IMG/VR virus record: IMGVR_UViG_3300025771_000048
Span: 1-45,436 of that record
DNA from: a virus
Direction: 5' to 3' (one strand)
Length of the DNA stretch: 45,436 nt
A program made the translations under genes and the position numbers. Below the pieces are notes generated by a model. The model searched no databases, was not told the DNA's origin, and worked only from the letters and a program-made list of their open reading frames with translations. This document shows positions 2,942-45,365 of the stretch, piece after piece. Each line of letters opens with the position of its first letter. The stretch's first letter is position 1.

Positions 2942-5900
2942 TTATCCTATGTGTATTGAGCCTGCATTTACATTTAAAGTACCAGCTATAGTTGCTCCAG
3001 ACGCAACCATTGTTCCATCTGAATCTACTCTAAAGTTAGCACTACCGAATACTGAATTTCCCATAAATAATTGTCCACTGCTATTTACATTAAATGCATT
3101 GTTTCCAATATTTATTGTAGCACCAGTTATAGCACCTCTAAATGTTCCTTCATTAAATTCTACAGTACCATCAGAGTTTAAACTAAAACCTGATGAACCC
3201 GGTGTATAATCACCTTTAATGCTTGTGTTACCACCATCTAATTCTAAATTCCCTGCAGTTAGCTTTGAAGCTGATATTGTCCAGCCACCAATTTCTCCTG
3301 TAGTTGCAGTTATGTTTCCTCTTATTAAAGCATCATTAATTTCTATAAATCCATCAGGATATCCAGTATCTTGTTTCCTAATTGTCCAACCAGAACTACC
3401 TGCTGAATAGTTATCAGACTCAATGATATTACCTATCTTAGCATTAACAATTGCTGCGTCTCCTATCTTTGCAGTAGTAACAGCTAAGTCATTAATTTTT
3501 GCTTCTGTAATTGCAGCGTCAGATATGAATTGAGTAGCAATCAATTGACCAGTTGCTAATTGCTGGTCAGAAGGGTCTGATTCGTTACCTGCAATATCTA
3601 CAGCAGTAAATCTAAAATAATGAGCGTCTCCATTTTCTAATGCTATTTCACCAACAACAGGAATATTATTTCTTATATTTGCAGCAGTAGCAGGTATCTT
3701 TCCTTTTGGCTCCATACCTGTAATAGAGAACCCTGTTTGTGTAGAAACATAAACATTTAAATGTTCAATGTCATTTTGTAAAGTAAAGTCAACAATACTT
3801 GCTAATGGATTACCTTGGTCATCCACTGCTCTACCTAAACTATGAACTATTTGAGTTCTTAATGTACCAGCAGCAATACTATCAGCTGGACCTGGTTTAT
3901 CTGGAGCATCTCCATCAATAGCAGTTGTAATAGTGTCGCTTGTATAAAGGTTGCTATCACCATTACTATTAACAGGAGCTATTCCTACTTCATAGTTTGT
4001 TGCAAGGTCTAATCCTTCTATAGTAAATTCATTAACACCCCAATTGACTGTAAGTTGTGTATAAGGGTCTGTACTACCAGTTCTTCTATATCTAATTCTG
4101 TACATTACACCATTTTGTATAATTGTTCCATCAACATTTAACGGTGTATCCCAAGTAGCTTTTATTATTGCTCTAGAAACACCTAACGCATCTTCTTGGA
4201 ATCCAGATACTAAAGCTAAGTTGCTAACAGATTGTGGTTGGTTAAATTTATCACCTAAAGTAATACCACTTGTTACCTGACTAAATCTTAAATCATCACC
4301 AAGTCTCAATGGCAAGTCTCCAACTTCTAATTGTGTTCCTGCACCTTCCCATTGTACGTAAGGAGTTAAATCAACATATTCTACTAAGTTATACCTAGAA
4401 GAACGTAATCTTCTTAAATACACACCGTATCCTTCTTGTACAGGCCAAGTTATTGAAGTAACTCTAATTTTTTCTGGATTAATATACTCACCTTGATAAG
4501 AAACTTCATACTTAGAATTTCTTTCAGGGTCTTCTGCAACTTTATCATCAGTGTCTTCAAATCCTAAATCTGGGTCATAAACAAATATATTATCCCCTAC
4601 TTCAAAGTCTCCTTGTATATCGTAAAAATCTAAATCTAAATTTATATTTCTTTTTGTTCTTTTTAATTCATTTAAGAAAGCAATAGCTCTTTCTTCTCTG
4701 GTCATATACGCATGGTCAGGCTCAGTTACATAAATAGCTCTTTCTAATTCCTCACCATTTAAACCTCTGTATGGATTCTTGTCGTCAATAACATCTAATG
4801 CATCATACTGTTTTCCATCTCCATAATCAGAAATGTACTCAACAATAGAAACATACTCTGAAGCATCAAAAGATGACTTGATAGCAGATGGATTCAAACC
4901 AGTTATTGAAGGGTCATCTCCACTATTTTGTCTAACTACAATTACAGTAGGGTCTTCTGCGTGACCTGAAAATAAGTTTTCTCTAGGCCCCATATCAATT
5001 AAAAGCTTGCCTTGATTTGTTCCACCAGGAATAGGTCTATCTGTATCATCAGAACTATCACCAATTCTTAGTCTGTATTCTACATCTAATTGGGTAGCAG
5101 CTTTATCTAAAGCACTTTTAACAGTTTCTATATGATGCTTACCATAATAAGCATTTGTTGTGTCTTCAATAACAGGAGCACTCGTAGGAACTGTAAATGT
5201 TGCAGTTCCACCACTATCTATATTTACTTGACCTTCACCTTTAGTCCATTTTAAACCATCTATGTAGCCATAAAAGTAGTCAGCAGTTTGTGATTTACCT
5301 ATAGATAAATCCATTCCATCAGGAGAAAAAGTTTTTAAATCAGGAGTTGGAGATTTTATATTTTTATCACTCTGCCATGTTTCAACCATTGTTCCGTTTT
5401 TAAAAGTGTAAAAATTTATACCCTTTCTTACTATTGCAAAATGATTCCATTGTCCGTAATCTATTGTTCCAAGTGATTTACCATCTGCAATGTCATAAGC
5501 TGATGTAACACCATTTTCTACAGCAGTATTTGATATTGATGACCTTATATAAACTTTTGAATTAGCTCCACCATTTTCATTTAACCCAATTATGAATGAT
5601 GGTATTCCATTGTGTGTTGTAGAAGCTACTACAGGCCCATGTCTTGTTGCACTTCTTGGGTTTGTTCCAGTAGCAGTTTTACCATGAAAGTATGAATTTT
5701 CATCCTGCCAGTATTGAGAATATATAGATTGATAAGTTGCATTAAGTTTATAGAAATCTTCGCTACCTGCGTCTGTATCGTATATAGACCTATCACCTGC
5801 ATAGTATTCAGGATAATCATCACTATCCCATCCTGAAGCTGTCCAAAAATCTACTGTTGGTCTTGACATAATATCATCTATTATGTCTTCAATTGTTGTA

Positions 5901-7072
5901 GATGAGGAAATTACATATGTTCCACCAGACTGACTTAAAACTTGGTAATTACTTGTATTACCTGTAGAACGACCATCAGGTGTTTTAGCTGTTGTATATT
6001 CTGGTTTATTTAAAAACTCGGTTGGTATATCTGCACCAGAATACCAATTTGAATCGTTCTTTGCATCCAAATTTCCTAAAGAATGAGTTGTATCAGTTTT
6101 GTCATTTTTTAATAGTCTATTTATATGTCTTTGATATCTATCAGCCATTCCTGAAGATATATGATATCCACCTAAGTCATTTCTTACTGATGCAAAAAAA
6201 ATTAAAGAAGCTGCTATATCAGAATATTCATTATCTAAATCAGATACGCTACTTACACCTGTTCCATCTTTTTGTTTATAAAAATAAGCAAAAAGGCTCT
6301 TAGAAAATCCTGCACCACCACGATGATATGCTATTGCACACATAATTTCAAAATGAGTTTGAGCTAATGCAGTATCGTAAGGAAAAGCATCTTCGTACCC
6401 TGTCATCGCATTTTTAACAGAGTCTATGTATCCACCACTTCTAGTAAATAACCACTTTGCTTGCTCTCTAGCTAATGAATAGCTAAATCTCATATTGCTA
6501 TTTGATGAATCATCACCAGTGTATTTAAATGGCAAATCTTTACCAGTTTGTAAAGTTCCATTATTATCTAGCCAATATCCACCATTGTTATTAACTAAAC
6601 TTGAACTAAATGAAGCTGGGAATGTATAAACAGTCCCGTTAATATCTATACCATCTGTATAAAAGTTTTTAAAGAAATCATCTTCTGTAATACCATAGGG
6701 ATGAAAAGTAGCTCCAAAACCTACAGTAAGAGTACCAGTTGGTTTACCATGAACATCTGGATTATAAGGAACTCTAGAACCTGAAACACCAGTATTAGAA
6801 CTTCTATAGTTTTGTCTTGTTTGATATAGCCTAGAACCTGTTGAAAACTGTGTTGAGTTGTAAGGGTCTAGTCTGTGATAATAAACACCATTAGCATTGT
6901 TTGTAGAATCAAATAAATCATCATCTATGCTTAGAGCTTCTGCTGTAGCTTTGCTAATTACTAATGGATATTTGTCATCATAAATATATGGAACAAATCC
7001 TTCATCAGGATACATTACATTATCTATAAAACTATTGTCAACTGTTGCGTTTGCTAAATCAAATTGAGGCAT
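2942..7072 (-). CDS. Tail hub/tip protein with lysozyme-like domain
   Basis: This 1376-residue mosaic begins with a T4-lysozyme-like glycosidase region at about 18-310: DEGFVPYIYDD gives Glu24 and Asp32/33, and GTLTVGFGA gives Thr116, the Glu-Asp-Thr set, with an ~80-residue insertion between Asp and Thr. Residues ~472-615 look like the second half of a LamG/concanavalin-type lectin domain (YGQWNHFAIVRKG, FYGYIDGLKWTKGEG). Residues ~640-930 resemble a tail-hub fold, ~945-1050 a fibronectin type III domain (YRIRYRRTG, ATNYEVGIAPVN), and 1160-1376 a repetitive fibre-like region (AITEAKINDLAVTTAKIGD). Peptidoglycan cutting during DNA entry is the expected job. The first half of a LamG domain lies at the end of the preceding gene, 5 bases upstream, so the lysozyme segment appears inserted into an older LamG-hub gene. 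Confidence 0.8.
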   Translation of the reverse strand: MPQFDLANATVDNSFIDNVMYPDEGFVPYIYDDKYPLVISKATAEALSIDDDLFDSTNNANGVYYHRLDPYNSTQFSTGSRLYQTRQNYRSSNTGVSGSRVPYNPDVHGKPTGTLTVGFGATFHPYGITEDDFFKNFYTDGIDINGTVYTFPASFSSSLVNNNGGYWLDNNGTLQTGKDLPFKYTGDDSSNSNMRFSYSLAREQAKWLFTRSGGYIDSVKNAMTGYEDAFPYDTALAQTHFEIMCAIAYHRGGAGFSKSLFAYFYKQKDGTGVSSVSDLDNEYSDIAASLIFFASVRNDLGGYHISSGMADRYQRHINRLLKNDKTDTTHSLGNLDAKNDSNWYSGADIPTEFLNKPEYTTAKTPDGRSTGNTSNYQVLSQSGGTYVISSSTTIEDIIDDIMSRPTVDFWTASGWDSDDYPEYYAGDRSIYDTDAGSEDFYKLNATYQSIYSQYWQDENSYFHGKTATGTNPRSATRHGPVVASTTHNGIPSFIIGLNENGGANSKVYIRSSISNTAVENGVTSAYDIADGKSLGTIDYGQWNHFAIVRKGINFYTFKNGTMVETWQSDKNIKSPTPDLKTFSPDGMDLSIGKSQTADYFYGYIDGLKWTKGEGQVNIDSGGTATFTVPTSAPVIEDTTNAYYGKHHIETVKSALDKAATQLDVEYRLRIGDSSDDTDRPIPGGTNQGKLLIDMGPRENLFSGHAEDPTVIVVRQNSGDDPSITGLNPSAIKSSFDASEYVSIVEYISDYGDGKQYDALDVIDDKNPYRGLNGEELERAIYVTEPDHAYMTREERAIAFLNELKRTKRNINLDLDFYDIQGDFEVGDNIFVYDPDLGFEDTDDKVAEDPERNSKYEVSYQGEYINPEKIRVTSITWPVQEGYGVYLRRLRSSRYNLVEYVDLTPYVQWEGAGTQLEVGDLPLRLGDDLRFSQVTSGITLGDKFNQPQSVSNLALVSGFQEDALGVSRAIIKATWDTPLNVDGTIIQNGVMYRIRYRRTGSTDPYTQLTVNWGVNEFTIEGLDLATNYEVGIAPVNSNGDSNLYTSDTITTAIDGDAPDKPGPADSIAAGTLRTQIVHSLGRAVDDQGNPLASIVDFTLQNDIEHLNVYVSTQTGFSITGMEPKGKIPATAANIRNNIPVVGEIALENGDAHYFRFTAVDIAGNESDPSDQQLATGQLIATQFISDAAITEAKINDLAVTTAKIGDAAIVNAKIGNIIESDNYSAGSSGWTIRKQDTGYPDGFIEINDALIRGNITATTGEIGGWTISASKLTAGNLELDGGNTSIKGDYTPGSSGFSLNSDGTVEFNEGTFRGAITGATINIGNNAFNVNSSGQLFMGNSVFGSANFRVDSDGTMVASGATIAGTLNVNAGSIHIG

Positions 7073-17671: not shown

Positions 17672-20600
17672 TTAACCACGAGGCCATGGACTATATTCTA
17701 TTGGGTTTGGTCCTTGATTCCAGAACCTTCCAGCAAGAGCTCTAGAAAGATATTCTTCAGACCTTGCAGGTGATGTAGCATGCATTTTTAACAGTTTTGC
17801 TATTTCATTAAAGTCATTTGTGCTCAAAGTTGGTATTGCACCATGATTTGTTTCAATAAAATTTTTAAAGTTAAAACCTAACATATGTAAAGCTCTAACT
17901 AATTTATGATATTCAGGTGGGAGTTCTCTAAATTTATTTGCATCTTCTACTTTTCTACTAGCTAAAAAATTAGTTACTCTCACAGCTTTACCTCCACTTT
18001 GTCCCCCTGTTGGAACAGAAGCGTACCACATTTGCTCCACAAATTTAGCCAATTCGTTTGTTCTACCCATTACTGCAGATGATTGTCCTCTTGCGGCAGA
18101 TAAAGCAAGTAAATCACTGTAAACAGTTTCATCGCTTACTGTTCTAGCTGTTTTTCTTAAACTTTTAAAATACTCTTGTGCTACTTCTCTATGGCTAGCT
18201 ACTCCGTATTTTGCTAGTCTAAGTACATGTGTAAAGGTTTTACCTCTATTGTATATTGGACCCATCCCTCTCATTACTGATTCACTTGAAGGGAAAGGGT
18301 CTCTTAATGCATCAACAACTACTTTTTCTAAACCCTGGTCAACACCAACTTCAATTCCATTTTTAAATTTACCTTTTAACTCAGGTCCGCTTTCAAAATT
18401 ATTGTTATTTGAATCTGCTAGCATTCTTTTTATAGATAATATTTTTTCTTTATTACCTCTATCACCTGGATGTGCATTATTAACCAATGCTTGAATTTGA
18501 GCATCTAAACCTGCCTGACTATAAATATTGTCAAATGTTAAATCAGCAGGGTCCATTCCTAAATCTCTGAAAGCTTTATTTCCGTGAATACCATATTTTG
18601 GGTCTGCAGCAAAGTTACTTTTGTTTCTCCACTCTTCACTATAGAATTCCATTAAGGCAGCTTCTTTAGCGCTAAAGTCTCCTTCATTAGCTAACACTTT
18701 AACTACATTATTTGATGCATCTTTAGCTACCAATTTAATACCATCTTCGTCAGGTATAAGTTGAACATTAGAAGAGTTAATTAAATCTAAATCTAATTTT
18801 CCATCAGATTGGTAAAAAACATCTGCAATTTCTTCAGTTAATAACTTAGTTTCACCCATTCTGTTTCTTATTGAACTTGCATTTTTAGTTGCATTTAATT
18901 TACAATATTTAACAGTTAATGCTACTTGTCTTAAAAATGCTCTAAATGGTAGTTCACTTCCTGTTTCAGAAAGACCTAAATGGTTTAAGATTGCTTTATT
19001 CAGACTCCTCATAAATACTTCAGCGTTTTCTCTAGCATATTGTCTTATTTGTCTTTCCAACATTTCACCTTTTGCTGTTCCTTTTAATGAGGATATTATT
19101 CCAGCTAGTTCTGATTGGTAAGCTTGATATGTATAAACTTGTATTTCTCTTGCTACACCCGCATCATTTAAGAAAGCTTTTTTAAACATATTTGTTGGAT
19201 GTGCAGGACTATTCAAAGGTATCTTTTTACCTCCAAGAGTATGCATAGGACCATCAATATTCTTTAAACCAAAAACTTCAGCTACTCCTTCAACGTCACC
19301 ATCTATAATTTTTCTTATGACCGGGTCTTCACTTGGATTTAATTCCCAATCTAATCTGTAATCAAAACCAGTGTCAACTTGTCCAGCTGTTCTTGACTGC
19401 TGTACCATATGTCTAAGTTGACCTGGACTTAATCCTGTAAATTCAGAAAATGCATTCCAATTAACGCTATTTTTAGCTGTATTAAATCTTTTAGTACCAC
19501 CACCGTATCTATTTACTTCTACAGTGTCATGAGCTAACTCAGTAAATATGTTTTGAAGTTTGTTTAATTGATTGTTTAATAAAGGTACTACAGGCATTTC
19601 TCCATATACATCCATACCTGTTGCTAAGTTTCTATATTTAGTTGTATACAATCTTCCAACATTATTATTACCAGTTCCATAAGAGTGAGTTATTCCATGT
19701 ATAGAATTCCTATCTCCTAATGGGTCAGATAATTTACCAATATACTTTCTGCTACCAGCACTGTAATAACCTAAATTTGCTGAGTTCATTGTAAAGTTTG
19801 AAGCTACTTTATCACCAGTAATTCCTAAGTTTCCTCTAGTAACATCATCCATAGAAGTAAACAAATCTCCACCACTCATATTTCCAAATTGACCAGTATT
19901 TCTAAATAAGGCTAAAGATTTCTGTGAAGCAATTCTTGCCTCTGCACTATTAAAACTAGAGTTGGTTCTAGCACCATCTTTAAATACTTGTGTTAAATCT
20001 TTTTCTAATTTTGCTAAACGATTTTTACCCTGTCTCATATCTTCTTTAATTTGTTTTACGTCAAATCTAGTTCTACTTCTATTGGGACCATCACCTTTTA
20101 AATCCAAAGGACTTATAGCTCCTGAACCAGAAATTTTTGCTGCAAAATCCATACCGTCGACATTGCTTCTAAACTCTGTTCCTTTGTCCCATATTCCTAA
20201 GTATGCAGCTGATTTAGTACCTGCTATACCCATAAAGTGAGAAGGTAAGAAAAACATACCATCAGTTCTTTTTTCTATTTGCATGTTTTTATCGTGAGCA
20301 AATCCGCCATATTCTATCTGAGCTATATCTCTAATAGCGTCAGCTGTTTTAGAGTTTTTATTACTACCACCAGCAGAAACTGAAAATCTAAACAAGTATG
20401 GAGTTCCGTCATTTTCATTTCTACCGAATCTATCCATATCATGCATATGTATAGATTTTCTGATTTGCCCTCTAGTTGGTACATAGTTGTGACTATTTTT
20501 TAAAGCAGTAGATTTTCCCTGAAAGCTAGTTTTGCCTTCATGAAATACTGAACCTCCATATGTTGTACCTGTCATATTTTCAATAAGGTTAGACCTTTTA

Positions 20601-22798
20601 CCATTATCTAACATAGCTTTTTCAATTTTTCTAGTAAGACTACCTTTATCTGTACTTACTGTTGCTCCTGTTAATTCATTTAAAATACTACCCATACCTA
20701 TTAGCTTTAAATTGTTTGCAAATTCGCTGTGCATTCTTGTTAATTTATTCATCCACCATTGTTCGGGTTTTCCATAAACTTTTCCTGTTTTTTTAAATTG
20801 TCTATGAACACTACCGGTCAAATGTAATTTTTTAAATTTACCATTAGGAGCTAATTCAACAGACATACCTTTTACATTTCCAGATAAAAAGTCTTCATAT
20901 GAAAAATACCTATCTCTATTAGGTTCTTTTACAGTCGAATGAAAACCAGAACCACCACCAGTGACATCTCCCACACCCAATTTGTTAAAATATTTTTTTG
21001 TTTTAGGTAAAGTCATGTGGTCTCCAGTTACACCTCTATAGCTTTTAACTACAGGAGGACCAGTATCAGAATCAAGAAATTGTATTTTACCTAAAGAGTA
21101 TTTAGTACTTCCTTTTCTTCCTAAATACTCTCTCATCATTTTTGTGTTGCTGAATATATCTCCTGTTGGCTGGAACCTATATCCTAAATCAACATCACCA
21201 GGATTCTTACCAGAAACTAAACTATATAAGACACCTTGATTCATAGCACCTTGCAAATTATTAATAATGTTGTTTCTTCCTTTTAAGAATCCTTTGTTTA
21301 AGTTAAAAGGAAGAATATCTAATCCAGGATTACTTTTTTTTGTAAAACCAGCTTGTGATTTTATAACCTTAGCTAAAGTGGTATATCCATTTTTCCTAAG
21401 TGCATCAACTAAATTTTGTAAAGATGAAGCTTGCATACCAGCACCTACAAAAAATCCTTGTTTTACTTCAAATGAACTAACTGTAGTTACCATTTGTGTA
21501 AGTAAGTCTGTCATTCCAGCGGCACTCATTTTATCTAATTTTGGAAATGGAAAGTTAAAAGCAGCTGCTACATTTTTCATTTCATTTAAAATGTCAGGTC
21601 CTAATTCAAATGATGATAATACATCAAAATCAACAGCACCGCCAGCACCAATATCGTTATGCCACGAACGTAAAAATTCTGCATTTAATTTGTTTTGTAA
21701 ATCTCTTTGTTTAAGGGTACTCATTCTTTGGTTTTCAGGGTCGTAAACAATATCTTGAACCTTTTCTCCTCTTTCATTTCTAGCAGTATTAAGATGCGTG
21801 TAACCTTCTTTTAAAGTTTCTCTATCTTCGTAATCTCTAGTTTGAGTACTGTTGCTACGCATAATTTTTCCAATAGAGTTGTATTCAGCTTGTTCCATAG
21901 CTCTTATTCTTCTTTCAGTAGATAGCTTTTCGTATTTATTTTTACCTTTAAAATAATCAAGAGATTCTGCATCTAAAATTGAATTAACTATATCTCCTTG
22001 AAATCCGGCTGCCCCACCAAAGTTTTGAGCGTCTGCTATTGACATAAGTTGATTAGCTCTAGTAGCGTTGATACCTACATTTAAATCTTGATTAAATTGA
22101 AGAGAAGTTACATCAAAAGTGTCACCTTTAGTTTTGACTGTCTTACTCCTTATTTTTTCAGCTTTACGCATAGGATTATCTCTAAATGGGTCAGGAGCTC
22201 CTTTAAAAGCTTCTGTAAATGTTAAAACTTGCCATTTCTGAAATACATTATTCTTACTTGGTAGTTGAGCTTGTCTTAGTATCTCAGCATCCATTTTTCT
22301 AGCATCAGCAGTTTGAACTACTTCCATCAAAGCTCCAGCTGAACCAAACTCTCTAATGTTTTTTAATAAGCCAGCTGACTCTCTACCTAATATAATATTT
22401 GTAGCTCTATCTACAGGAGTACCAGTTCTTAATGCTCTAGAAATTGCACCTTTAGTCTTACCAACATATTTTGCACCACCTAATAATTTCTGTCTTTTCA
22501 ATACCTGACCACCAAGTAAATTTGTTGGTTGTTTTAAGTTTTTTACAACTGAACGAGCAGTGTTTGTATATTCACCAATTAGATATGGAACGCTTACTAT
22601 TTGACCTAAATCTAAACCAAAAGAACCTAATGTAGTTAAGTTATAACCAACCGCATATACTCTTTCTCTAGGATTTAAATTTTTAAGGCTTTTAAATAAA
22701 GGTATTTTACCTGGCCCATATTTAGAACTTTTATCTGTGAGAGTTATTCCACCAGTTTTAAAAAACTGTCTTGTGGCGCTACCTAATCTGTAAGCCAT
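17672..22798 (-). CDS. 1708-residue virion-region protein, unknown function
   Basis: This protein occupies the place where HK97-type phages normally carry a ~100-150-residue neck protein (HK97 gp10-like) between head closure and tail terminator. It is overall basic and hydrophilic, without signal peptide. There is one hydrophobic stretch near residues 50-80 (LTTLGSFGLDLGQIVSVPYL). A segment around residues 800-870 (DIAQIEYGGFAHDKN, then FFLPSHFMGIAG) is reminiscent of the GG..P-F-P pattern of gp10-like neck proteins; this is weak. I recognise no nuclease, protease, polymerase or toxin active site. It shares three bases with the upstream head-closure gene (TAATG). Options are a hugely expanded neck protein, an internal ejected protein, or a fused enzyme too diverged to see. 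Confidence 0.75.
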   Translation of the reverse strand: MAYRLGSATRQFFKTGGITLTDKSSKYGPGKIPLFKSLKNLNPRERVYAVGYNLTTLGSFGLDLGQIVSVPYLIGEYTNTARSVVKNLKQPTNLLGGQVLKRQKLLGGAKYVGKTKGAISRALRTGTPVDRATNIILGRESAGLLKNIREFGSAGALMEVVQTADARKMDAEILRQAQLPSKNNVFQKWQVLTFTEAFKGAPDPFRDNPMRKAEKIRSKTVKTKGDTFDVTSLQFNQDLNVGINATRANQLMSIADAQNFGGAAGFQGDIVNSILDAESLDYFKGKNKYEKLSTERRIRAMEQAEYNSIGKIMRSNSTQTRDYEDRETLKEGYTHLNTARNERGEKVQDIVYDPENQRMSTLKQRDLQNKLNAEFLRSWHNDIGAGGAVDFDVLSSFELGPDILNEMKNVAAAFNFPFPKLDKMSAAGMTDLLTQMVTTVSSFEVKQGFFVGAGMQASSLQNLVDALRKNGYTTLAKVIKSQAGFTKKSNPGLDILPFNLNKGFLKGRNNIINNLQGAMNQGVLYSLVSGKNPGDVDLGYRFQPTGDIFSNTKMMREYLGRKGSTKYSLGKIQFLDSDTGPPVVKSYRGVTGDHMTLPKTKKYFNKLGVGDVTGGGSGFHSTVKEPNRDRYFSYEDFLSGNVKGMSVELAPNGKFKKLHLTGSVHRQFKKTGKVYGKPEQWWMNKLTRMHSEFANNLKLIGMGSILNELTGATVSTDKGSLTRKIEKAMLDNGKRSNLIENMTGTTYGGSVFHEGKTSFQGKSTALKNSHNYVPTRGQIRKSIHMHDMDRFGRNENDGTPYLFRFSVSAGGSNKNSKTADAIRDIAQIEYGGFAHDKNMQIEKRTDGMFFLPSHFMGIAGTKSAAYLGIWDKGTEFRSNVDGMDFAAKISGSGAISPLDLKGDGPNRSRTRFDVKQIKEDMRQGKNRLAKLEKDLTQVFKDGARTNSSFNSAEARIASQKSLALFRNTGQFGNMSGGDLFTSMDDVTRGNLGITGDKVASNFTMNSANLGYYSAGSRKYIGKLSDPLGDRNSIHGITHSYGTGNNNVGRLYTTKYRNLATGMDVYGEMPVVPLLNNQLNKLQNIFTELAHDTVEVNRYGGGTKRFNTAKNSVNWNAFSEFTGLSPGQLRHMVQQSRTAGQVDTGFDYRLDWELNPSEDPVIRKIIDGDVEGVAEVFGLKNIDGPMHTLGGKKIPLNSPAHPTNMFKKAFLNDAGVAREIQVYTYQAYQSELAGIISSLKGTAKGEMLERQIRQYARENAEVFMRSLNKAILNHLGLSETGSELPFRAFLRQVALTVKYCKLNATKNASSIRNRMGETKLLTEEIADVFYQSDGKLDLDLINSSNVQLIPDEDGIKLVAKDASNNVVKVLANEGDFSAKEAALMEFYSEEWRNKSNFAADPKYGIHGNKAFRDLGMDPADLTFDNIYSQAGLDAQIQALVNNAHPGDRGNKEKILSIKRMLADSNNNNFESGPELKGKFKNGIEVGVDQGLEKVVVDALRDPFPSSESVMRGMGPIYNRGKTFTHVLRLAKYGVASHREVAQEYFKSLRKTARTVSDETVYSDLLALSAARGQSSAVMGRTNELAKFVEQMWYASVPTGGQSGGKAVRVTNFLASRKVEDANKFRELPPEYHKLVRALHMLGFNFKNFIETNHGAIPTLSTNDFNEIAKLLKMHATSPARSEEYLSRALAGRFWNQGPNPIEYSPWPRG

Positions 22799-32331: not shown

Positions 32332-32701
32332 ATCTCCCCAAGTAAGCTCTTACAAACTTAGTGTACTCTCTTTTTTGTCCAGATATAGTTTTGCCATCAA
32401 AAATATCGTGATGAAATTTACAAAAGATAGCAACATTACCTTCATCGTTCGAAATATTTCGATTCATGCCTCCCATTCCAATTCCAGTAATGTGTGCCAT
32501 CTCCAACCATTGTGTAGTATCGCACTCGGGCCACTCACATCTATAGTTTGCTCGTTTTAATGCTTTTTCTCTAAGAGCTGATTTATTTATTTTTCCAGTA
32601 CCTTCACGCTTTTTCTGACCCATACCGGATATACCAGAGTTTTTACTTCTTCTTTTTTTAAATTCTTCCCAAGTTTCATTTTCAGCATCCCAAGTTGTCA
32701 T
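32324..32701 (-). CDS. HNH endonuclease
   Basis: The ATG at 32699-32701 overlaps the SET gene stop as ATGA, so I prefer it to an in-frame ATG four codons upstream. The 125-residue protein has an HNH nuclease: CEWPEC and CKFHHDIFDG as Cys/His ligands, AHITGIGMGG for the catalytic His, and GNVAIFC between. Small HNH enzymes encoded beside terminase genes are needed for packaging cleavage in several HK97-like phages; that role is likely here, with homing or host DNA degradation as alternatives. Confidence 0.9.
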   Translation of the reverse strand: MTTWDAENETWEEFKKRRSKNSGISGMGQKKREGTGKINKSALREKALKRANYRCEWPECDTTQWLEMAHITGIGMGGMNRNISNDEGNVAIFCKFHHDIFDGKTISGQKREYTKFVRAYLGRYA

Positions 32702-32994
32702 ATTTGATACCAAGTATATTTTAAAGTAAGTTCTTCTCCTGATTGAATATCTTTAAAAGTTTCAAGATATACTTCTTCTTTTTTTAATACTGTTCTACAG
32801 TTAGGTTCATCTGAATGATTTACAAATCCTCCAAGTGGAGTTCTAATCCAACCATTCTCAAACCTCTCTGAAGCTACGTGAGATATTCCAAGATTAGTTC
32901 CTGCTGAAATAAATTCTTTTGCAAATAAACCTAATCCTTCTATTTCTGATTGTTTAATAGTTAAACTATTAGGTAATGGTCTGTACTGTTTCAT
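32698..32994 (-). CDS. SET-domain protein (lysine methyltransferase-like)
   Basis: This 98-residue protein has the core SET motifs: GLGLFAKEFISAGTNLG (residues 20-36), FVNHSDEPNC (58-66, the NHS-x-x-PN SAM-binding loop) and SGEELTLKY (85-93, with the Tyr near the end). SET proteins transfer methyl from S-adenosylmethionine to protein lysine. Short versions occur in aquatic phages and bacteria. A target, possibly a host nucleoid or ribosomal protein, cannot be read here. It lies between a 95-base non-coding gap and the HNH gene. Confidence 0.88.
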   Translation of the reverse strand: MKQYRPLPNSLTIKQSEIEGLGLFAKEFISAGTNLGISHVASERFENGWIRTPLGGFVNHSDEPNCRTVLKKEEVYLETFKDIQSGEELTLKYTWYQI

Positions 32995-33456: not shown

Positions 33457-34062
33457 TTATACAAAAATCCAATCAGGTTTTTCTTGTGCTGGTTTATCTT
33501 TGTAAAGAATTTGGAATATATTTGCAACTGCCATAGTATCTGCAACTGCGTCGTGTTCTAAATAATCTCCAAAACCAAATTCGTGATGTAAATGACTTAA
33601 TGTATGACCTGAACATTCACTTCTACAGGTGTCAAAACATTTTGTTGGGGAATTAAAGTATTCTTTAGACATATCTTTAGTGCATAACCACTCATTAGTA
33701 AACATTGGTTTGTTGTAATAATCTAAAGTATCCTCCATAACCTTTTTATCAAACTTAGCATTATGAGCTACAAATGTCTTTTTTCCTACTAAGCCTACTA
33801 ATATTGGAAACAATTTATCAAAAGTTGGTGCATTTTCGCTATATTCTTTTTTTGGTGAAGCAAAAGACCATTCTAAATTAAAGTAAGCACTAGGGGGTTT
33901 GATGTAAGAGTGCGCAGATTCGAACTCTAAACCGTCATACCATACTAATCCTATCTGTACTGCGTCTTGTTTTGGTACATTTTTGTCGAAATAGTATCTT
34001 CCTGCTAAATCTCTACCTGTTGTTTCAAAGTCTATAAAGATAAAATCACTTAGATTCTGCAT
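33457..34062 (-). CDS. DnaQ-like 3'-5' exonuclease (DEDDh)
   Basis: I place the start at the ATG 34060-34062, with GAAAGG eight bases upstream, rather than the longer frame to 34149, because the longer frame overlaps WhiB by over 100 bases. The 201-residue protein has all DEDDh motifs: FIDFETTG (Asp11, Glu13), VAHNAKFDKK (Asp105) and LEHDAVADTMA (His170, Asp175). It is a single-domain proofreading-type or RNase T-like nuclease. It could degrade host DNA or trim ends in replication. It overlaps the WhiB stop by 17 bases and is co-transcribed with it. Confidence 0.92.
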   Translation of the reverse strand: MQNLSDFIFIDFETTGRDLAGRYYFDKNVPKQDAVQIGLVWYDGLEFESAHSYIKPPSAYFNLEWSFASPKKEYSENAPTFDKLFPILVGLVGKKTFVAHNAKFDKKVMEDTLDYYNKPMFTNEWLCTKDMSKEYFNSPTKCFDTCRSECSGHTLSHLHHEFGFGDYLEHDAVADTMAVANIFQILYKDKPAQEKPDWIFV

Positions 34063-34318
34063 TTTTACGCCTTTCTCTACGAATAGCTCTGCGTTCTCTC
34101 TCTGATTTACCTCCCCAAATACCAAATCTTTCTTTGCGTTCGACCGCATATTCTAAACATTCGGATTGGACTTTGCATTCGCCACAAATCTTTTTAGCAA
34201 TAACTGTTGAACTTCCTCGCTCTGGAAAGAAATCATCTTGATTAACTCCCTTACAGTTAGCATATTTATAAAAACTAGGTACTGCTAGTAAATCAGCTAG
34301 TTCTGTATGTAAATCCAT
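34046..34318 (-). CDS. WhiB-family transcriptional regulator
   Basis: The 90-residue protein has four conserved cysteines (Cys22, Cys45, Cys48, Cys54; C-x22-C-x2-C-x5-C) that would hold a 4Fe-4S cluster, the GIWGG turn at 66-70, and a basic C-terminus RERRAIRRERRKNAESK. This is the complete WhiB architecture; these factors bind the primary sigma factor to redirect transcription. The family is an actinobacterial hallmark, and phage WhiB proteins are known to displace host WhiB. No Shine-Dalgarno precedes the ATG, so the mRNA may be leaderless, and a LexA-type box lies just upstream. It is the first gene of a two-gene unit with the exonuclease. Confidence 0.95.
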   Translation of the reverse strand: MDLHTELADLLAVPSFYKYANCKGVNQDDFFPERGSSTVIAKKICGECKVQSECLEYAVERKERFGIWGGKSERERRAIRRERRKNAESK

Positions 34319-36215: not shown

Positions 36216-36260
36216 TAGATAAATCAAGCTCATCTTAACAGGTGGGCTTGGACTTATCTA
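36216..36260 (+). ncRNA. Conserved hairpin, copy 1
   Basis: Lower stem TAGATAA/TTATCTA (7 pairs), internal loop AT against GAC, upper stem CAAGCTCATC/GGTGGGCTTG (10 pairs with two G-U) and six-base loop TTAACA. The same architecture recurs at 36472 with compensatory changes. It begins at the base after a stop codon. The right arm can alternatively pair with a second TAGATAAG at 36267-36274, next to the ribosome site of the following gene, giving a possible switch. Confidence 0.65.
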
Positions 36261-36474: not shown

Positions 36475-36516
36475 ATAAATCATGCTCATTTGCAAGAGTG
36501 AGCATGGACTTATCTA
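36472..36516 (+). ncRNA. Conserved hairpin, copy 2
   Basis: Lower stem TAGATAA/TTATCTA and internal loop AT/GAC are identical to copy 1. The upper stem is CATGCTCATT/AGTGAGCATG with loop TGCAAG. Relative to copy 1, pair A-U at position 3 has become U-A, and G-U and C-G pairs have become A-U pairs, so the fold is kept while sequence changes. The stop codon of the upstream gene forms the first pairs. No T-tract follows, so it is not simply a terminator. Confidence 0.65.
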
Positions 36517-39473: not shown

Positions 39474-39866
39474 ATGAGTTACTTAACAAGTAATGATAGA
39501 AAACAATTGAAGAAGTATGCTGACCTTTTAGCAAAGGAAGCTAAGTTTATACAGGATGGTTGGATAAACCTACCTGAAACAAATGCTTTTACTGTTAAAA
39601 CAGATGCAAAATTCTTCAGAGCTATGTTAGAAGTAATAGATGCAGTTCCGGAAGTATTCAATCAATTGAGTGCTAGTGAAGCATTTATGCTTGCAAACAT
39701 GGTATTAACCGATTGGAGTAGTATGAATGCATTTACATCTGTAAGGCGATTCAGCTATTCACAATCATTTAATTTATATCATGATGGTCTATGGATTAGT
39801 CCATGGTATCAGAAACTCTACTCTGTAGAGGATTTGACAGCAATGTCAAATGGTGATATACTTTAA
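39474..39866 (+). CDS. 130-residue protein of unknown function
   Basis: A compact soluble protein: an N-terminal basic helix (SNDRKQLKKYADLLAKEAKF), then a helical core (FFRAMLEVIDAVPEVFNQLS, EAFMLANMVLTDWSS) and an aromatic C-terminal part (FNLYHDGLWISPWYQKLYS). No motif I recognise. It is the gene just before the glutamine amidotransferase (40-base gap) and so may belong to the amidoligase pathway, for instance as a carrier or substrate, but nothing in it shows this. Confidence 0.7.
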   Translation: MSYLTSNDRKQLKKYADLLAKEAKFIQDGWINLPETNAFTVKTDAKFFRAMLEVIDAVPEVFNQLSASEAFMLANMVLTDWSSMNAFTSVRRFSYSQSFNLYHDGLWISPWYQKLYSVEDLTAMSNGDIL

Positions 39867-39906: not shown

Positions 39907-41010
39907 ATGTGTATAATCGCATCAGTACCAGCCGGACATACAATAGATGACGGTGCTTTGACATCCATGTGGGAAAACAACCCAGATGGTGGCGGTATCG
40001 CTTACATTGATGACGGCAAAGTAAAGACCTACAAGACAATGAAGATGCAAAAGTTCAAGATGAACTTTGACAGAATCGTTGAAGAGTATGGTCATTCCGA
40101 CATATTGGTACACACAAGAATCGCTACACACGGTTCTGTATGTATACCAAATGTACACCCATTCAAAGTAATGAGTAACGGAAGACAAAGAAAAGACCTT
40201 GTGTTTGCACACAATGGTATATTGCCTAGCGCATTTATACCACCTGCAAAGCAAGACATATCTGACACAAGATACATCAATGAGATGTTGTTTAACCACA
40301 CAGACCTTGATGCAGTGTTAGATGATGAAGCTTGGCGAGAAATGCTTGGAGATATTATTGGACACAACAAGTTTGTGTTCTTGTCTGCTAGCAAAGCGCA
40401 CAAGAGAGAATCATATATAATTAACTCTCACTTTGGTCAATATGATGGGAAAGTTTGGTATTCAAACTCATCTTATTGTAGACCTAAGATAGTTAAGACA
40501 TATAACCCATACAAGACTGGCAAGCAGTGGAACGGTTATCAACCACCTGTCTCAAGAGACAGCGACTTGATTGACACTAGAGCTGAAGGGTATGTTGACC
40601 CTTTAACTGGTGAAATCGTTTACTACGATGACCATCTCAATGACGAAGCTCAAGCTCATTTAGAGCGACAAGCAATCAGATATGAGGGATTGACTTATGA
40701 CAAGCAATTGCTCGAAGATGATGCATTCGTTAAAACATGGGAAACATTGCAAGCTAACACTGGTTACCAAACCATTGAAGATGCAATGGACGGTCTATGG
40801 GCTGAAATTGATGAGAACGGTATATGGAGATGCTTTGACTGTGATAGCGCTATTACAGTCTGGGGTGTCAGAACATGTACTGACGATTGTCAACTTGGTA
40901 ATTATATGGCAGAAGCTTCAGAGTACGAAGTTGCTCAGATACAAGCAGAAGCTGACTTTAAAAAGTCAACCAAGAAAAAAGAAACGAAGCAACAACAGCT
41001 TCCTTTCTAA
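39907..41010 (+). CDS. Class-II glutamine amidotransferase
   Basis: After Met removal Cys2 would be the N-terminal nucleophile (MCIIASVPAG) of an Ntn-type glutamine amidotransferase. Family features follow: NNPDGGGIAYI (25-33), VHTRIATHGS with Arg71, NVHPF (82-86) and FAHNGIL (100-106). Residues ~1-190 form this domain, which releases ammonia from glutamine. The C-terminal ~170 residues are less clear and contain CFDC and CTDDC, a possible zinc site. The strong ribosome site AGGAGG precedes the ATG. It is followed by two amidoligases, so it likely delivers nitrogen, or removes glutamyl groups, in the same pathway. Confidence 0.9.
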   Translation: MCIIASVPAGHTIDDGALTSMWENNPDGGGIAYIDDGKVKTYKTMKMQKFKMNFDRIVEEYGHSDILVHTRIATHGSVCIPNVHPFKVMSNGRQRKDLVFAHNGILPSAFIPPAKQDISDTRYINEMLFNHTDLDAVLDDEAWREMLGDIIGHNKFVFLSASKAHKRESYIINSHFGQYDGKVWYSNSSYCRPKIVKTYNPYKTGKQWNGYQPPVSRDSDLIDTRAEGYVDPLTGEIVYYDDHLNDEAQAHLERQAIRYEGLTYDKQLLEDDAFVKTWETLQANTGYQTIEDAMDGLWAEIDENGIWRCFDCDSAITVWGVRTCTDDCQLGNYMAEASEYEVAQIQAEADFKKSTKKKETKQQQLPF

Positions 41011-41045
41011 TTACAAATAAATAAAAATACAAAGGAGACAAACTA

Positions 41046-43769
41046 ATGTCCGAATATACAGGCAAAATACGGGGGTCTAAGCTCCCGTATGACCATATTA
41101 AGGCACAGTATCTCAATATTGTAGATGAAAGTCGTGGTGGTGCAGACCACCCACTTCATGGAAACAATACTGAGCACACTTACAATAGATGGTTGCGTGA
41201 AACTCCTAACCTTACTGGTAGTAAGAAGAAGTACGATGCAATTGTATCTATTGACGTTGCCGAACTCATTGAGTCACTAACATCAGAAAATGTTAGAGAC
41301 TTTCATGGGGCATCTATGAAATGGAAACGCAGTATGCAGGATGTTGTATCCAATAGAGCACATGCTTACGCAAGTAATCATAATGTAGATGTAGAGGCTG
41401 TCATAGAAGTACTGTATAGTTTATATTCAGTATTCGTGGCTGAACCTTTCTACTCTATATTGGAAAACAACTATACATACGGTTCCAGAATTAATTGGTT
41501 ACGTAATCTATTGTCAGATAGATTCGGAGCTGTTAATTACAGTAACCCAAGAGCAACTTGGATATCTCATTATGAGACTATATCCAGTGGTATTGCGGAT
41601 GCTGATGACTATTCACAGTCAGAGATTAGTGCTGTGTTTAGAAATCATATCCAATATCAAATGTATCCTAAACAATGGGACACTTTACCATTACGATACA
41701 TTGGTATTCCTATGGTTACTGATAACTACATATCATATGCCTTACCTGGCAATGGTAATGAATTGAGTTACGACTCACTTTATTACAAGTCAGCTGGAGC
41801 TAAGAGTTGGTTCTCAGCTAAGAGAGGTTATTGGTATGGTAGGTCAACTGGTGGTCAAGTATTTGACGACTATTCAGGCAACTGGATAAGTAAAGTCAAA
41901 TGGGCTAACAGCCGTAAGTACTCTGCATGTAACTTGTGTCATCACAAGTATGATGTAATGATGCTTGACTGGTACAAAGTACGTAGCTATCAAAATACAA
42001 GAAGCAGAATTTGCTATCAATGTATTGCTACTTATGGACTATCTTATAACCCTTGGCAAAAGTCTTGGATTATAGCTAGTTACAATAATAACGAAGATAT
42101 GGACGTTGCAGCCAATGACAGACCAATCAGACTAAGACACGTTGACGATACTGGTGATAAACCAGTTGGTAGACGTGACTATGATTGGCGAGTTGATGAA
42201 GAGTTCCTAGAGGAAAACAACATCGACATTGATGTCAATGACCTTAAGTTACCAGTAGAGACCAGACGTTATCTTACATGGCTTAGGAAACTTCCTATGT
42301 CAGCAAGAATGAACATTGGCTTTACGTTAACTACGTTACGTAAGGATGCTATTGCTAGTCAAATGACAACTAACTCATCTGAGAGATTAGAGTTCTTGGA
42401 TATGTACAGTCCTATACTTGATGCATTTCCTGCTCAATACAGGTCAGACGATACGAGAGGCGACCACATTGCTATGTGGATTGACTCTATGATGGAAGAC
42501 CGTAATTTCAGAATGCGATACTCAAGTAGAGTAGCAGAGAGTAGAGTAACTGACGATGGTTGGCTTGAACCTTCTCATGGCATACGCCTAAACAAAGAGA
42601 AGAACTCATACAACTATCGACCAGACTTCTATTATGTTGACTATATTGATGGAAAATATTACTCAACATATACAGAAGGCTCAAGTGGTGACTATGCTTA
42701 CTGTTCTGACCATGATATACCTAACCATAGATGTACATCATGGCACAGAGAGTATGGATTGTTTATGGGTCTAGAGCTCGAGCTTATTGCTAGAGATACT
42801 AGAGAACAATCTAATGTTGGACCAATGCAATTGTTCCAGAGAACATTAGAAACATTCCATCCTAATGACTATCGTAATATGTCACATGATGTAGCACCAC
42901 AGTTAATGTACATCAAACATGATGGCTCACTACCATCAGCTACTGGTGCTGAGTTTATTTCTCAGCCAATGTCTATGAGAGCATGGCAAAATGCTCCTAA
43001 GACATTCTGGTACATGACTGAGCAAAACTACAAAGCACACAGTGTTGGTGGTGTAGGTATTCACATACATATACCATGGGACGCATTCACTGAGCAACAC
43101 GGTTATACATTCTTGTCAGCGCTACAAGCACTGCAATGGAATGCAAACGGATTGCTTAGATACATTGCACAACGACCAAGCAACAGCTGGACATCTTGGG
43201 ACCAATTGGATTACCACGATGTGCCTAATGTTATTGCAGCGGTTGTTCGTTCAAGACGTGCTAACAACTCAAGCAAGTATCAAGGTATTAACCTTATGCA
43301 CAATAACACTATTGAGCTAAGATACTTCAACTCCAATGCAAAGGGCAATAGAGTTCTTAAGAACTTAGAATTTGTTCAAGCATTGTATGACTTCACAATG
43401 TGGAAGTCAGACAGTTCCGGTTGGGATAATGAACTAGGTCCTGATGAATCATTGCTAAATGAAATCAGTACTTGGCGTAATCAAGCCGACGAATGGTCAG
43501 ATGCTGAAGAGTGTCTGATTAGGAACACACATGATGAAGACTTTGATGGAGTCTTAAACATTGAGCAAGTATTTGTTCAATTCATAACAGACAATCATCA
43601 TAAGTATCATCATCTTATGGAGTTCTTATTGAGAAACGATGACGACTTGGAAATATCTCAAGACGAAATTGATTCTCTCTGGGAGCAACAAGAAGAAACT
43701 ACTGAGGAAGAGGTTGAAGAAGTCGTTGAGACTGTACAACCTGTGACACGACTTGGTAACACAATATAA
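41046..43769 (+). CDS. Amidoligase-family protein, large, with zinc ribbon
   Basis: This 907-residue protein carries an amidoligase domain (COOH-NH2 ligase, glutamine-synthetase-like fold) at ~570-790: FMGLELELIAR (Glu577, Glu579), IKHDGSL (623-629) then GAEFISQPM, GVGIHIHIPW (His673, His675), and NNTIELRYFN with Glu757 and Arg759. These are the metal and ATP binding positions of the family, which joins a carboxyl group to an amine using ATP. Residues 1-570 are specific to this phage; they include a CxxC-x24-CxxC zinc ribbon at 295-326. The end is very acidic (EEQQEETTEEEVEEV type). It lies 35 bases after the amidotransferase and 25 before the second amidoligase. Confidence 0.88.
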   Translation: MSEYTGKIRGSKLPYDHIKAQYLNIVDESRGGADHPLHGNNTEHTYNRWLRETPNLTGSKKKYDAIVSIDVAELIESLTSENVRDFHGASMKWKRSMQDVVSNRAHAYASNHNVDVEAVIEVLYSLYSVFVAEPFYSILENNYTYGSRINWLRNLLSDRFGAVNYSNPRATWISHYETISSGIADADDYSQSEISAVFRNHIQYQMYPKQWDTLPLRYIGIPMVTDNYISYALPGNGNELSYDSLYYKSAGAKSWFSAKRGYWYGRSTGGQVFDDYSGNWISKVKWANSRKYSACNLCHHKYDVMMLDWYKVRSYQNTRSRICYQCIATYGLSYNPWQKSWIIASYNNNEDMDVAANDRPIRLRHVDDTGDKPVGRRDYDWRVDEEFLEENNIDIDVNDLKLPVETRRYLTWLRKLPMSARMNIGFTLTTLRKDAIASQMTTNSSERLEFLDMYSPILDAFPAQYRSDDTRGDHIAMWIDSMMEDRNFRMRYSSRVAESRVTDDGWLEPSHGIRLNKEKNSYNYRPDFYYVDYIDGKYYSTYTEGSSGDYAYCSDHDIPNHRCTSWHREYGLFMGLELELIARDTREQSNVGPMQLFQRTLETFHPNDYRNMSHDVAPQLMYIKHDGSLPSATGAEFISQPMSMRAWQNAPKTFWYMTEQNYKAHSVGGVGIHIHIPWDAFTEQHGYTFLSALQALQWNANGLLRYIAQRPSNSWTSWDQLDYHDVPNVIAAVVRSRRANNSSKYQGINLMHNNTIELRYFNSNAKGNRVLKNLEFVQALYDFTMWKSDSSGWDNELGPDESLLNEISTWRNQADEWSDAEECLIRNTHDEDFDGVLNIEQVFVQFITDNHHKYHHLMEFLLRNDDDLEISQDEIDSLWEQQEETTEEEVEEVVETVQPVTRLGNTI

Positions 43770-43794
43770 TAAAAAACTATAGGAGATAATAATT

Positions 43795-45000
43795 ATGCCT
43801 AGAAGTACAGAAAACATAAGACACAACGTAGACGAAACACCGGACTCATTGAGTTCGGTGCGTAGTTCGCACAGTGTCTTTGTAGTACACGAAAATACTA
43901 TTGCTCTACCAGCTGGTAGAAGAAATGGTAAATGCTCTACGGAGCAAGCAACAAAGAATATCCAAAAAAGATACTGGAAAACTGGTATCCCTATGGGTAT
44001 GGAATTGGAAGCAGAGTATGATGGTCCCGAATGTAGCTGTGATTGCGGTTACTGTGACGAAGCTGACCATGGTTACTGTGACTATGATTGCGATAACGGA
44101 AGCATACATGAATGGGTTCCTGTTCAAGATATCATTACTAAATCTAATGAATATCTTTACAAGCACATGCGTGAATATGCTATAAGTAAGGGTAGAGAAA
44201 CATATCCTTACATCAATCCAGTAATAGCAAAATATGATGGCTCACTTGACTGTGGTGTTGAATTTAACTTTCAACCTATGACAGTTGAGTCATTCAGACC
44301 ATTTGCACAGATTGTCCAAGACAATGCAGGTGGCTTGTCTGGCTATCACAATGACAGTGCAGGTATACATATACATATGCCTAAAGCTGCCTTTACAGAT
44401 GCGGAACTTTACTTGTTCCTAGTTCTGTGGAGAACCTTTGAACTATATGTTGACGATGACGGTAAACCGTTCTTGGAAATCATATGTCAAAGGTCTGAAA
44501 ACCAATGGTGCCATTACAATGTACCATTCGATAGAGAATCTGATAGAGAAGACCTGATTGAAGGTAAGCTCGGTAAGATATTCTACGATGTCATTAAGAA
44601 CGGAAGAAGGTCGCATGCCAATAGATATTCCGCACTAAACCTTAATGGTCATGGTACAACAATGGAAGTTAGGGCATTCAACTCTAACTTACGTGCAGAT
44701 AGACTAATTAAGAACATGGCATTCTTAGACGCATGTTGGAGATATGTACATCTTCTTTCAGACTTATTGAATGAAGGTAGATATAAAGAGGCTCTACAAT
44801 ATGTAACTAACTTACATTCGTTTGTAGGTTATTGTAAGAATCCACTTAGAAAGGGCTTCAATGAAGAACTTGCTAGGTTCTTAGATAGTAATTGGGACGA
44901 TTCAGATTCTCATAAACAGCAATCGCTTATTTATGGAACTGACTTGTTGCCATATCTAATACAAATAAATGAAGAAGACAACTACGGAGGTACTGAATAA
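43795..45000 (+). CDS. Amidoligase-family protein, short, with Cys-rich insert
   Basis: The 401-residue protein is a second, divergent amidoligase: PMGMELEAEYD (Glu70, Glu72), AKYDGSLDCGVEFNFQPM (Asp148, Glu156), SAGIHIHMPK (His192, His194), RYSALNLNGHGTTMEVRAFN (Glu291, Arg293). An insert after the first motif has six cysteines at 80-99 (C-x-C-x-C-x2-C-x7-C-x3-C), probably metal-binding. Only the domain-spanning motifs are shared with the 907-residue protein, so the pair is old or one came separately. The stop overlaps the ATG of the membrane protein (TAATG). It should ligate an amine to a carboxylate; substrate unknown. Confidence 0.88.
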   Translation: MPRSTENIRHNVDETPDSLSSVRSSHSVFVVHENTIALPAGRRNGKCSTEQATKNIQKRYWKTGIPMGMELEAEYDGPECSCDCGYCDEADHGYCDYDCDNGSIHEWVPVQDIITKSNEYLYKHMREYAISKGRETYPYINPVIAKYDGSLDCGVEFNFQPMTVESFRPFAQIVQDNAGGLSGYHNDSAGIHIHMPKAAFTDAELYLFLVLWRTFELYVDDDGKPFLEIICQRSENQWCHYNVPFDRESDREDLIEGKLGKIFYDVIKNGRRSHANRYSALNLNGHGTTMEVRAFNSNLRADRLIKNMAFLDACWRYVHLLSDLLNEGRYKEALQYVTNLHSFVGYCKNPLRKGFNEELARFLDSNWDDSDSHKQQSLIYGTDLLPYLIQINEEDNYGGTE

Positions 45001-45191
45001 TGAAAACATTATCAGCTATTCTTGCTTGGTTGTTAGTACCTACAGCAACTGACTATCATACACACCCAGGTTTATTCTGGGTTAAGTCTATGATAGCTGG
45101 TACCTTTCTTGCGTTTGCAATTATGGGTATTGCTGGTGGTATCTACTTTTACTTCAGCCCAGACTTTGATGACTGGAATGAAGACAGGTAA
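45000..45191 (+). CDS. Small membrane protein coupled to amidoligase
   Basis: The 63-residue protein has an N-terminal hydrophobic stretch (TLSAILAWLLVPTA) and a clear transmembrane helix (MIAGTFLAFAIMGIAGGIYF, residues ~31-50), followed by an acidic tail (FDDWNEDR). The coupled TAATG start has GGAGG 11 bases before, inside the amidoligase gene. It is the last gene before the terminator. It could place the amidoligase products or enzymes at the membrane; that is a guess from position. Confidence 0.65.
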   Translation: MKTLSAILAWLLVPTATDYHTHPGLFWVKSMIAGTFLAFAIMGIAGGIYFYFSPDFDDWNEDR

Positions 45192-45206
45192 GTAGCGCTT
45201 CTATTT

Positions 45207-45230
45207 AGGGGGTATCTTCGGGTACCCCTT
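45207..45230 (+). terminator. UUCG-loop hairpin after the amidoligase operon
   Basis: AGGGGGTATC-TTCG-GGTACCCCTT: ten pairs with a C(UUCG)G tetraloop, one of the most stable RNA hairpins. It lies 15 bases after the last stop codon. The following bases are ATAATACAAG, so the T-tract is minimal. It is nonetheless well suited as terminator or 3' end protector. Confidence 0.7.
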
Positions 45231-45365
45231 ATAATACAAGCCTCTTAACACATACTTGATTTCTAGGCTCGCGGTGAGCTATATCCAATAATTCAATTTT
45301 GACCCTAGCACCCCCCCTGAGTAACTTTCAGGCATAAGGACGGGGTGGGAGAGCTGTATCTAAAA

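Follow-up and report, generated by a model that had tools for sequence, protein, structure and literature searches.

Pairs of an amidoligase and a glutamine amidotransferase (GAT) are described for the phages Marvin, MEP401 and MEP402 in PMC10580990, and phiEco32, RIO-1 and LUZ24 possess, according to PMC5498523 and PMC3890496, a five-enzyme cassette that includes two amidoligases. For such phage cassettes, cell wall modification and protection from superinfection have been proposed, not demonstrated (PMC10580990, PMC5498523), and no experimental account was found of what phage amidoligase-GAT pairs make. In actinobacteria, lipid II is amidated at D-isoglutamate (D-iGlu) and meso-diaminopimelate (mDAP) by the glutamine-dependent enzymes MurT/GatD and LtsA/AsnB, with amidation of mDAP restraining wall hydrolysis (PMC6736417). 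Analysed herein is a four-gene module from the virus record IMGVR_UViG_3300025771_000048 of IMG/VR, a siphophage fragment whose entire 45,436 bases are referred to as the window. The module encodes a GAT, two amidoligases resembling glutamine synthetase (GS), termed LigA and LigB, and a membrane micro-protein. We tentatively read it, in a judgement only just short of an even call, as a membrane-associated, glutamine-fed, ATP-dependent amidation system, acting most plausibly on host peptidoglycan precursors.

The module comprises the final four genes of a short plus-strand region. An earlier note, made from the sequence alone, had placed all four correctly, as each was confirmed as an open reading frame (ORF) on the plus strand, and a purine-rich ribosome-binding site lies ahead of every one. 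The module and its recognisable parts are as follows.

39907-41010, plus strand: GAT, a predicted class-II (Ntn) glutamine amidotransferase of 367 aa, with a stand-alone glutaminase domain
40831-40890, plus strand: Cys4 ribbon at the GAT C-terminus, C309-x2-C312-x11-C324-x3-C328
41046-43769, plus strand: LigA, a GS-like amidoligase of 907 aa with a long N-terminal part
41928-42023, plus strand: zinc ribbon of LigA, C295-x2-C298 ... C323-x2-C326 (CxxC..CxxC, residues 295-326)
42753-43445, plus strand: amidoligase domain of LigA, about residues 570-800, from alignments, AlphaFold2 and Foldseek
43795-45000, plus strand: LigB, a GS-like amidoligase of 401 aa
44032-44091, plus strand: Cys-rich insert in the LigB domain, six Cys within residues 80-99, of low model confidence
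45000-45191, plus strand: membrane micro-protein of 63 aa with one or two transmembrane segments
45206-45231, plus strand: terminator-like hairpin with an 11-bp stem, a C(UUCG)G loop and a weak T-tract

The first gene product is a class-II (Ntn) GAT with predicted glutaminase activity, bearing out the earlier assignment of a Cys2 nucleophile. It matches GATase_4 (PF13230; 8e-8, 32 bits, above the cut-off of 23), its profile matches the glutaminase domain of GlmS (1xff), and the glutamine-site residues are all present (Cys2, Arg71, Thr74-His75-Gly76, Asn103-Gly104 and Asp120). Relatives are numerous, with at least 477 in the viral contigs scanned; amongst 106 that were aligned, Cys2, Arg71, Thr74, Asn103-Gly104 and Asp120 are each found in at least 105, and His75 in 97. 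Cys2 directly follows the initiator Met in the window protein and in 105 of the 106. The C-terminal Cys4 ribbon, which had been overlooked, is invariant in six aligned GATs of the two-ligase clade. As the protein is a bare glutaminase domain, with no acceptor-specific domain, it needs a partner.

LigB matches the amidoligase family PF12224 (5e-7, 30.2 bits, above the cut-off of 22). Its AlphaFold2 model (pLDDT 79, pTM 0.84) has as best Foldseek matches in the PDB YbdK and glutamine synthetases (probability 1.0, E 6e-5 to 5e-4, TM about 0.3). The amidoligase domain of LigA is modelled with a pLDDT mostly of 70-96, and finds 1tt4 and YbdK (1r8g) as its best matches. For both ligase models the probability relative to YbdK-type structures is 1.0, with low TM-scores of about 0.3, and a search of PDB sequences with the ligase profile returned no match to E 1. 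On the evidence of these models, LigB and the LigA ligase domain share the fold class of YbdK and glutamine synthetase. All 15 motif positions (ExE, DGS, E, G-HxH, R, Y..N and E-R-F) are intact in LigA and LigB alike, as had been claimed for the main motifs; thus, judged from sequence, neither ligase lacks its ATP- or metal-binding residues. The Cys-rich insert of LigB, also overlooked previously, recurs as a Cys-rich region in the related locus L016 (retrieved loci are given L numbers) and is missing from the LigBs of L017 and L018.

LigA matches phrog_16683 at 2e-13, and resembles LigB at about 1e-15 by phmmer. Its long N-terminal part had been described as unique and as carrying a zinc ribbon; the ribbon stands, whilst the uniqueness does not, since residues 208-545 match L016 and L118, and the ribbon recurs in L016 and is visible in the sequences of the L017 and L018 LigAs. 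This ribbon also resembles those of the single-ligase relatives and of the GAT. AlphaFold2 gave mostly low confidence for residues 1-560, and no fold is claimed for this region. In the LigA of four relatives (L126, L127, L161 and L162), DGS is replaced by D[A/V/T]S and HxH by HxN, and the Tyr is gone; the accompanying LigB keeps both ExE and HxH, and departs only in having Ser for the Gly of DGS (L126 and L127) or Ser for Asn (L161 and L162). Because LigA has lost catalytic positions in these four whilst LigB keeps nearly all of them, LigA may be a partner or scaffold.

To evaluate how regularly GAT and ligase occur together, viral contigs were scanned with a GAT alignment, and a locus was deemed paired when a ligase lay within 2.5 kb on the same strand. 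Amongst non-redundant evaluable loci, 99 of 103 are paired, with the ligase usually directly upstream, the four others being L049, L055, L057 and L137. GAT and ligase are therefore inherited as a pair, rather than being kept independently of one another, and the functional link proposed between them finds support. An amide-forming role, predicted from the enzyme classes, is likewise supported. An ATP-grasp protein is found close to about a dozen of the single-ligase loci. As to the exceptions, L137 (8587-11758) contains four tandem GAT-II genes, with no amidoligase detected nearby; conversely, no GAT was detected in the retrieved region of the ligase-bearing Clostridioides phage AR1086-1 (L012:5674-6786) or Microcoleus phage My-WqHQDG (L014:5419-6489). 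Related pairs also exist in actinobacterial genomes. Nocardia sp. CDC159 (L097:6097-10157) harbours two successive amidoligase-GAT pairs, near which lie an NB-ARC/TPR regulator and an ISL3 transposase, and in Labedaea rhizosphaerae (L096:6808-16412) a TrwC-type relaxase gene lies a few kb downstream of the pair, which probably sits on a conjugative element. This suggests that such pairs are carried on conjugative elements as well as on phages.

Most GAT loci possess a single ligase. Two ligases are found in 15 distinct contigs, namely the window, L116, L117, L118, L119 and L120 (whose module genes are identical), L121-L127, L161 and L162; a sixteenth record is a repeat of the window sequence. 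In an IQ-TREE phylogeny of the ligase domain, one clade, set against the other phage ligases (97/94), unites LigAs and LigBs with a number of single ligases (L129-L135, L149 and L163-L168); within it, nine LigAs, including the contig-edge ligase of L128, form a subclade (99/95). By this phylogeny, the two-ligase form appears as one lineage with LigA and LigB as paralogues, and the simplest reading would be one duplication at the base of the phage lineage. Gene order varies, being GAT-A-B in the window, L116, L117 and L118, and A-GAT-...-B in the remaining two-ligase contigs. Since the ligases are paralogues of one lineage, and LigA is degenerate in four relatives, the earlier inference of two steps or two substrates from two diverged ligases is not warranted. 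A catalytic LigB with a structural or substrate-positioning LigA is at least as good a fit for the lineage in its entirety, and a two-step pathway could still apply in the window phage, where both ligases are complete.

The probable hosts of this lineage are indicated by a gene outside the module.

34046-34318, minus strand: WhiB-like transcription factor (PF02467, 6.8e-21)

WhiB proteins are restricted to actinobacteria, and serve as a marker of actinophages (PMC6802176, PMC10202952); in a control set of 14 genomes, the profile matched only in Corynebacterium glutamicum. A whiB gene is present in 14 of the 14 two-ligase contigs tested, and also in L128, the contig of which ends before any second ligase might be seen. 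The gene is absent from all 13 single-ligase contigs of the sister clade, as well as from L136, although these are incomplete fragments in which absence is weaker evidence than presence. Because of this distribution (14/14 versus 0/13), the doubled ligase form appears to go with actinobacterial hosts. The whiB gene of the window virus marks its host as an actinobacterium, probably an aquatic one. Diversifying selection on the module was also considered and rejected. The dN/dS of GAT, LigA and LigB exceeds that of neighbouring genes in only two of four pairs (0.59 versus 0.22 for the window and L004, p 2e-6; 0.25 versus 0.09 for L122 and L123), with no difference in the other two and values below 1 everywhere.

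The micro-protein start overlaps the LigB stop as TAATG, with GGAGG upstream, a coupling that the earlier note had recognised. A small hydrophobic ORF starting -7 to +1 nt from the LigB stop is present in nine of the 15 two-ligase contigs (five of nine lineages), compared to 12 of 581 control ORF ends (2%). Its sequence is hardly conserved, with 30% identity over 53 aligned residues between the window and its sister, the ligases of which are 87-90% identical; its place and hydrophobicity are kept. The micro-protein counts as a genuine, if not universal, member of the module. The four-gene set ends, as the earlier note had seen, at the UUCG hairpin, with the region 45190-45245 folding at -23.6 kcal/mol (z -4.6).

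Taken together, the four genes would constitute a module for amide synthesis that draws on glutamine and ATP and is made while an actinobacterium is being infected. In a first step, for which the sequence offers good support, the N-terminal Cys of the GAT would hydrolyse glutamine and release ammonia. A GS-like ligase, certainly LigB and probably also LigA in the window phage, would then activate a carboxylate as an acyl-phosphate using ATP and Mg, and join it to the GAT-derived ammonia or to another amine, as the fold and active site suggest. This glutaminase and ligase chemistry very probably holds. Thereafter, LigA and the micro-protein would bind the complex together and anchor it at the inner membrane, and a membrane-bound complex of this kind is, in our estimation, an even call. 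The acceptor, the weakest element of the scheme, would be a carboxylate on a precursor of peptidoglycan, namely that of D-iGlu or mDAP in lipid I/II. By analogy, lipid I/II is the most likely acceptor in an actinobacterium because its D-iGlu and mDAP carboxylates are amidated by glutamine-dependent enzymes. New wall would thereby be amidated and harder to cut, shielding the infected cell from the wall hydrolases of superinfecting phages. Peptidoglycan as the target is a possibility that we place somewhat below even, whilst a superinfection benefit seems unlikely.

Several observations weigh against this scheme. Of the two ligases, only LigB passes in the profile search that had been proposed as a check; LigA scores 15.8 bits against PF12224, below the cut-off of 22, and given this score is classed only as a LigB homologue with a GS-like domain. 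There is no micro-protein directly after LigB in six of the 15 two-ligase contigs (L119/L120, L121, L122/L123 and L125), and most single-ligase loci are without a membrane ORF at that place. The sequence holds nothing that points specifically to peptidoglycan, ammonia is not the only amine open to GS-like ligases, and the zinc ribbons of GAT and LigA would be just as suitable for proteins or nucleic acids as substrates. This last point leads to an alternative in which a macromolecule of phage or host (protein, virion or nucleic acid) is recruited via the ribbons and has its carboxylates amidated or conjugated by the ligases, in the manner of the Pup ligase PafA. The Cys4 ribbons of GAT and LigA, the Cys-rich insert of LigB, and the presence of PafA and Dop amongst the weaker fold matches would all accord with this. 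It is nonetheless improbable, as the micro-protein favours a location at the membrane, a small gene for a Pup-like carrier was not recognised, and the ribbons may serve structure or assembly alone.

We attach a similarly low probability to synthesis of a peptide-like metabolite or wall side chain, in which the ligases would join amino acids and the GAT would trim or exchange gamma-glutamyl groups instead of feeding ammonia. Two ligases are indeed present, and PMC5498523 interprets phage cassettes with a gamma-glutamyl-type ligase, an ATP-grasp enzyme and GGCT as producers of unusual cross-links in peptidoglycan, assigning GAT and GGCT to degradation. However, ATP-grasp_3 (PF02655) was found in none of 17 contigs, which may be incomplete and were not searched for other ATP-grasp families, and no GGCT was seen amongst the window ORFs scanned with Pfam, the window being a fragment with some structural ORFs scanned only with PHROGs. 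LigA has, moreover, lost its motifs in one class of contigs, and ammonia supply is the simpler fit for a bare GAT-II beside a ligase. That the module only tunes the host glutamine and ammonia pool for nucleotide synthesis is very improbable: phage papers do list such genes as auxiliary metabolic genes (PMC10580990), but a wide distance separates the GAT and the ligases from metabolic GlmS and glutamine synthetase (25 of 418 bits for the GAT against the GlmS equivalog), and two diverged ligases, ribbons and a coupled transmembrane protein are not expected of a housekeeping bypass.

Elsewhere in the window, minus-strand structural genes encode a terminase, portal, head protease, major head protein and a tape measure of 2098 aa. 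One further feature precedes the module.

39834-39862, plus strand: promoter-like site TTGACA-N17-TATACT, with TG before the -10, within the 3′ end of the preceding gene (11/12 consensus matches)

This site, strong in its match and overlooked in the earlier note, is a candidate promoter only, and was not used as evidence: it is identical in the near-identical sister contig L004 and not found in L117 or L118, and the region displays no excess of promoter-like sites. PADLOC returned no defence-system match, nor did Rfam and tRNA scans of the window yield matches. A 1376-aa tail protein (2942-7072, minus strand) contains laminin-G, fn3 and tail-tip domains, preceded by an N-terminal part that is lysozyme-like by eye (GFGATFHPYG region), and is possibly a virion wall hydrolase. 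A 1708-aa protein amongst the structural genes (17672-22798, minus strand) has zero Pfam or PHROG matches, and a small SET-domain protein is encoded at 32698-32994 (minus strand; PF00856, 8e-12). Two similar hairpins with 12-bp stems lie on the plus strand at 36224-36251 and 36480-36507, 256 bp apart, with the common tail ACTTATCTAT.

The compact four-gene version of this system offers a good experimental handle, with few parts, a complete LigB, a sometimes degenerate LigA and a built-in membrane anchor, and the likely host wall chemistry (amidation of D-iGlu and mDAP) is measurable by muropeptide mass spectrometry. Expression is also feasible in actinobacteria kept in the laboratory. Were the wall reading true, actinobacterial phages, aquatic ones probably included, would carry their own wall-amidation enzymes, which would be relevant to superinfection and to lysin resistance.

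With regard to known systems, novelty is less than the earlier note implied, given the pairs and the two-amidoligase cassette already published. Marvin (gp105/gp106) and the OM43 phages MEP401 and MEP402 possess an adjacent zinc-ribbon amidoligase and bare GAT-II in which the catalytic residues are all common with the window, and the host of the mycobacteriophage Marvin is likewise an actinobacterium. The proteins are, however, only 21-32% identical to those of the window, and these phages have a single ligase upstream of the GAT, whilst in the window the GAT leads, and two ligases and the coupled transmembrane protein lie behind it. The podovirus cassette for peptidoglycan modification (RIO-1, phiEco32, LUZ24, PSA-HP1 and UFV-P2) is described, in PMC5498523 and PMC3890496, as an early-region set with two amidoligases and a class-II GAT. 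The window module shares its combination of GAT-II and Amidoligase_2. The podovirus ligases are of two types, COOH-NH2_lig (PF14395) and Amidoligase_2, and are accompanied by ATP-grasp and GGCT; those of the window are paralogues of one type, with ribbons and a coupled transmembrane protein in addition, and PF14395 gave no match to E 1 in the four module proteins.

Amongst cellular enzymes, MurT/GatD pairs a Mur ligase (MurT) with a class-I glutaminase (GatD), whilst LtsA and AsnB combine glutaminase and asparagine-synthetase-type synthetase on one chain. The parts of MurT/GatD show no homology to those of the window module, which, unlike LtsA/AsnB, consists of separate proteins with GS-like ligases; neither a Mur-ligase/class-I GATase pair nor a GAT-II-asparagine-synthetase fusion was present amongst the domains found in Pfam and NCBIfam scans. 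The likeness is one of function: in Gram-positive bacteria the GatD glutaminase subunit feeds an ATP-dependent ligase that amidates lipid II, and LtsA/AsnB perform class-II, glutamine-dependent amidation of wall mDAP in actinobacteria and Bacillus, both resembling the activity proposed here (PMC6736417). The YbdK/glutamine synthetase/PafA superfamily shares the fold class of the window ligases by structure search, but at 10-14% identity and with other substrates, and the TM-scores of only about 0.3 imply a different domain placement. A bolder proposal, and a distinctly unlikely one as a whole, is that LigA, LigB, GAT and the micro-protein assemble into an amidating complex, tethered to the membrane and peculiar to one actinophage lineage, in which LigB would be the catalyst and LigA would be becoming a non-catalytic positioner of GAT and substrate, a viral and independently built counterpart of MurT/GatD or LtsA that would rewrite the host wall during infection. 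The GAT-ligase pair is thus already known in many phages, and what is new is the doubled lineage with its membrane coupling, a distinct variant found here only in whiB-bearing phages.

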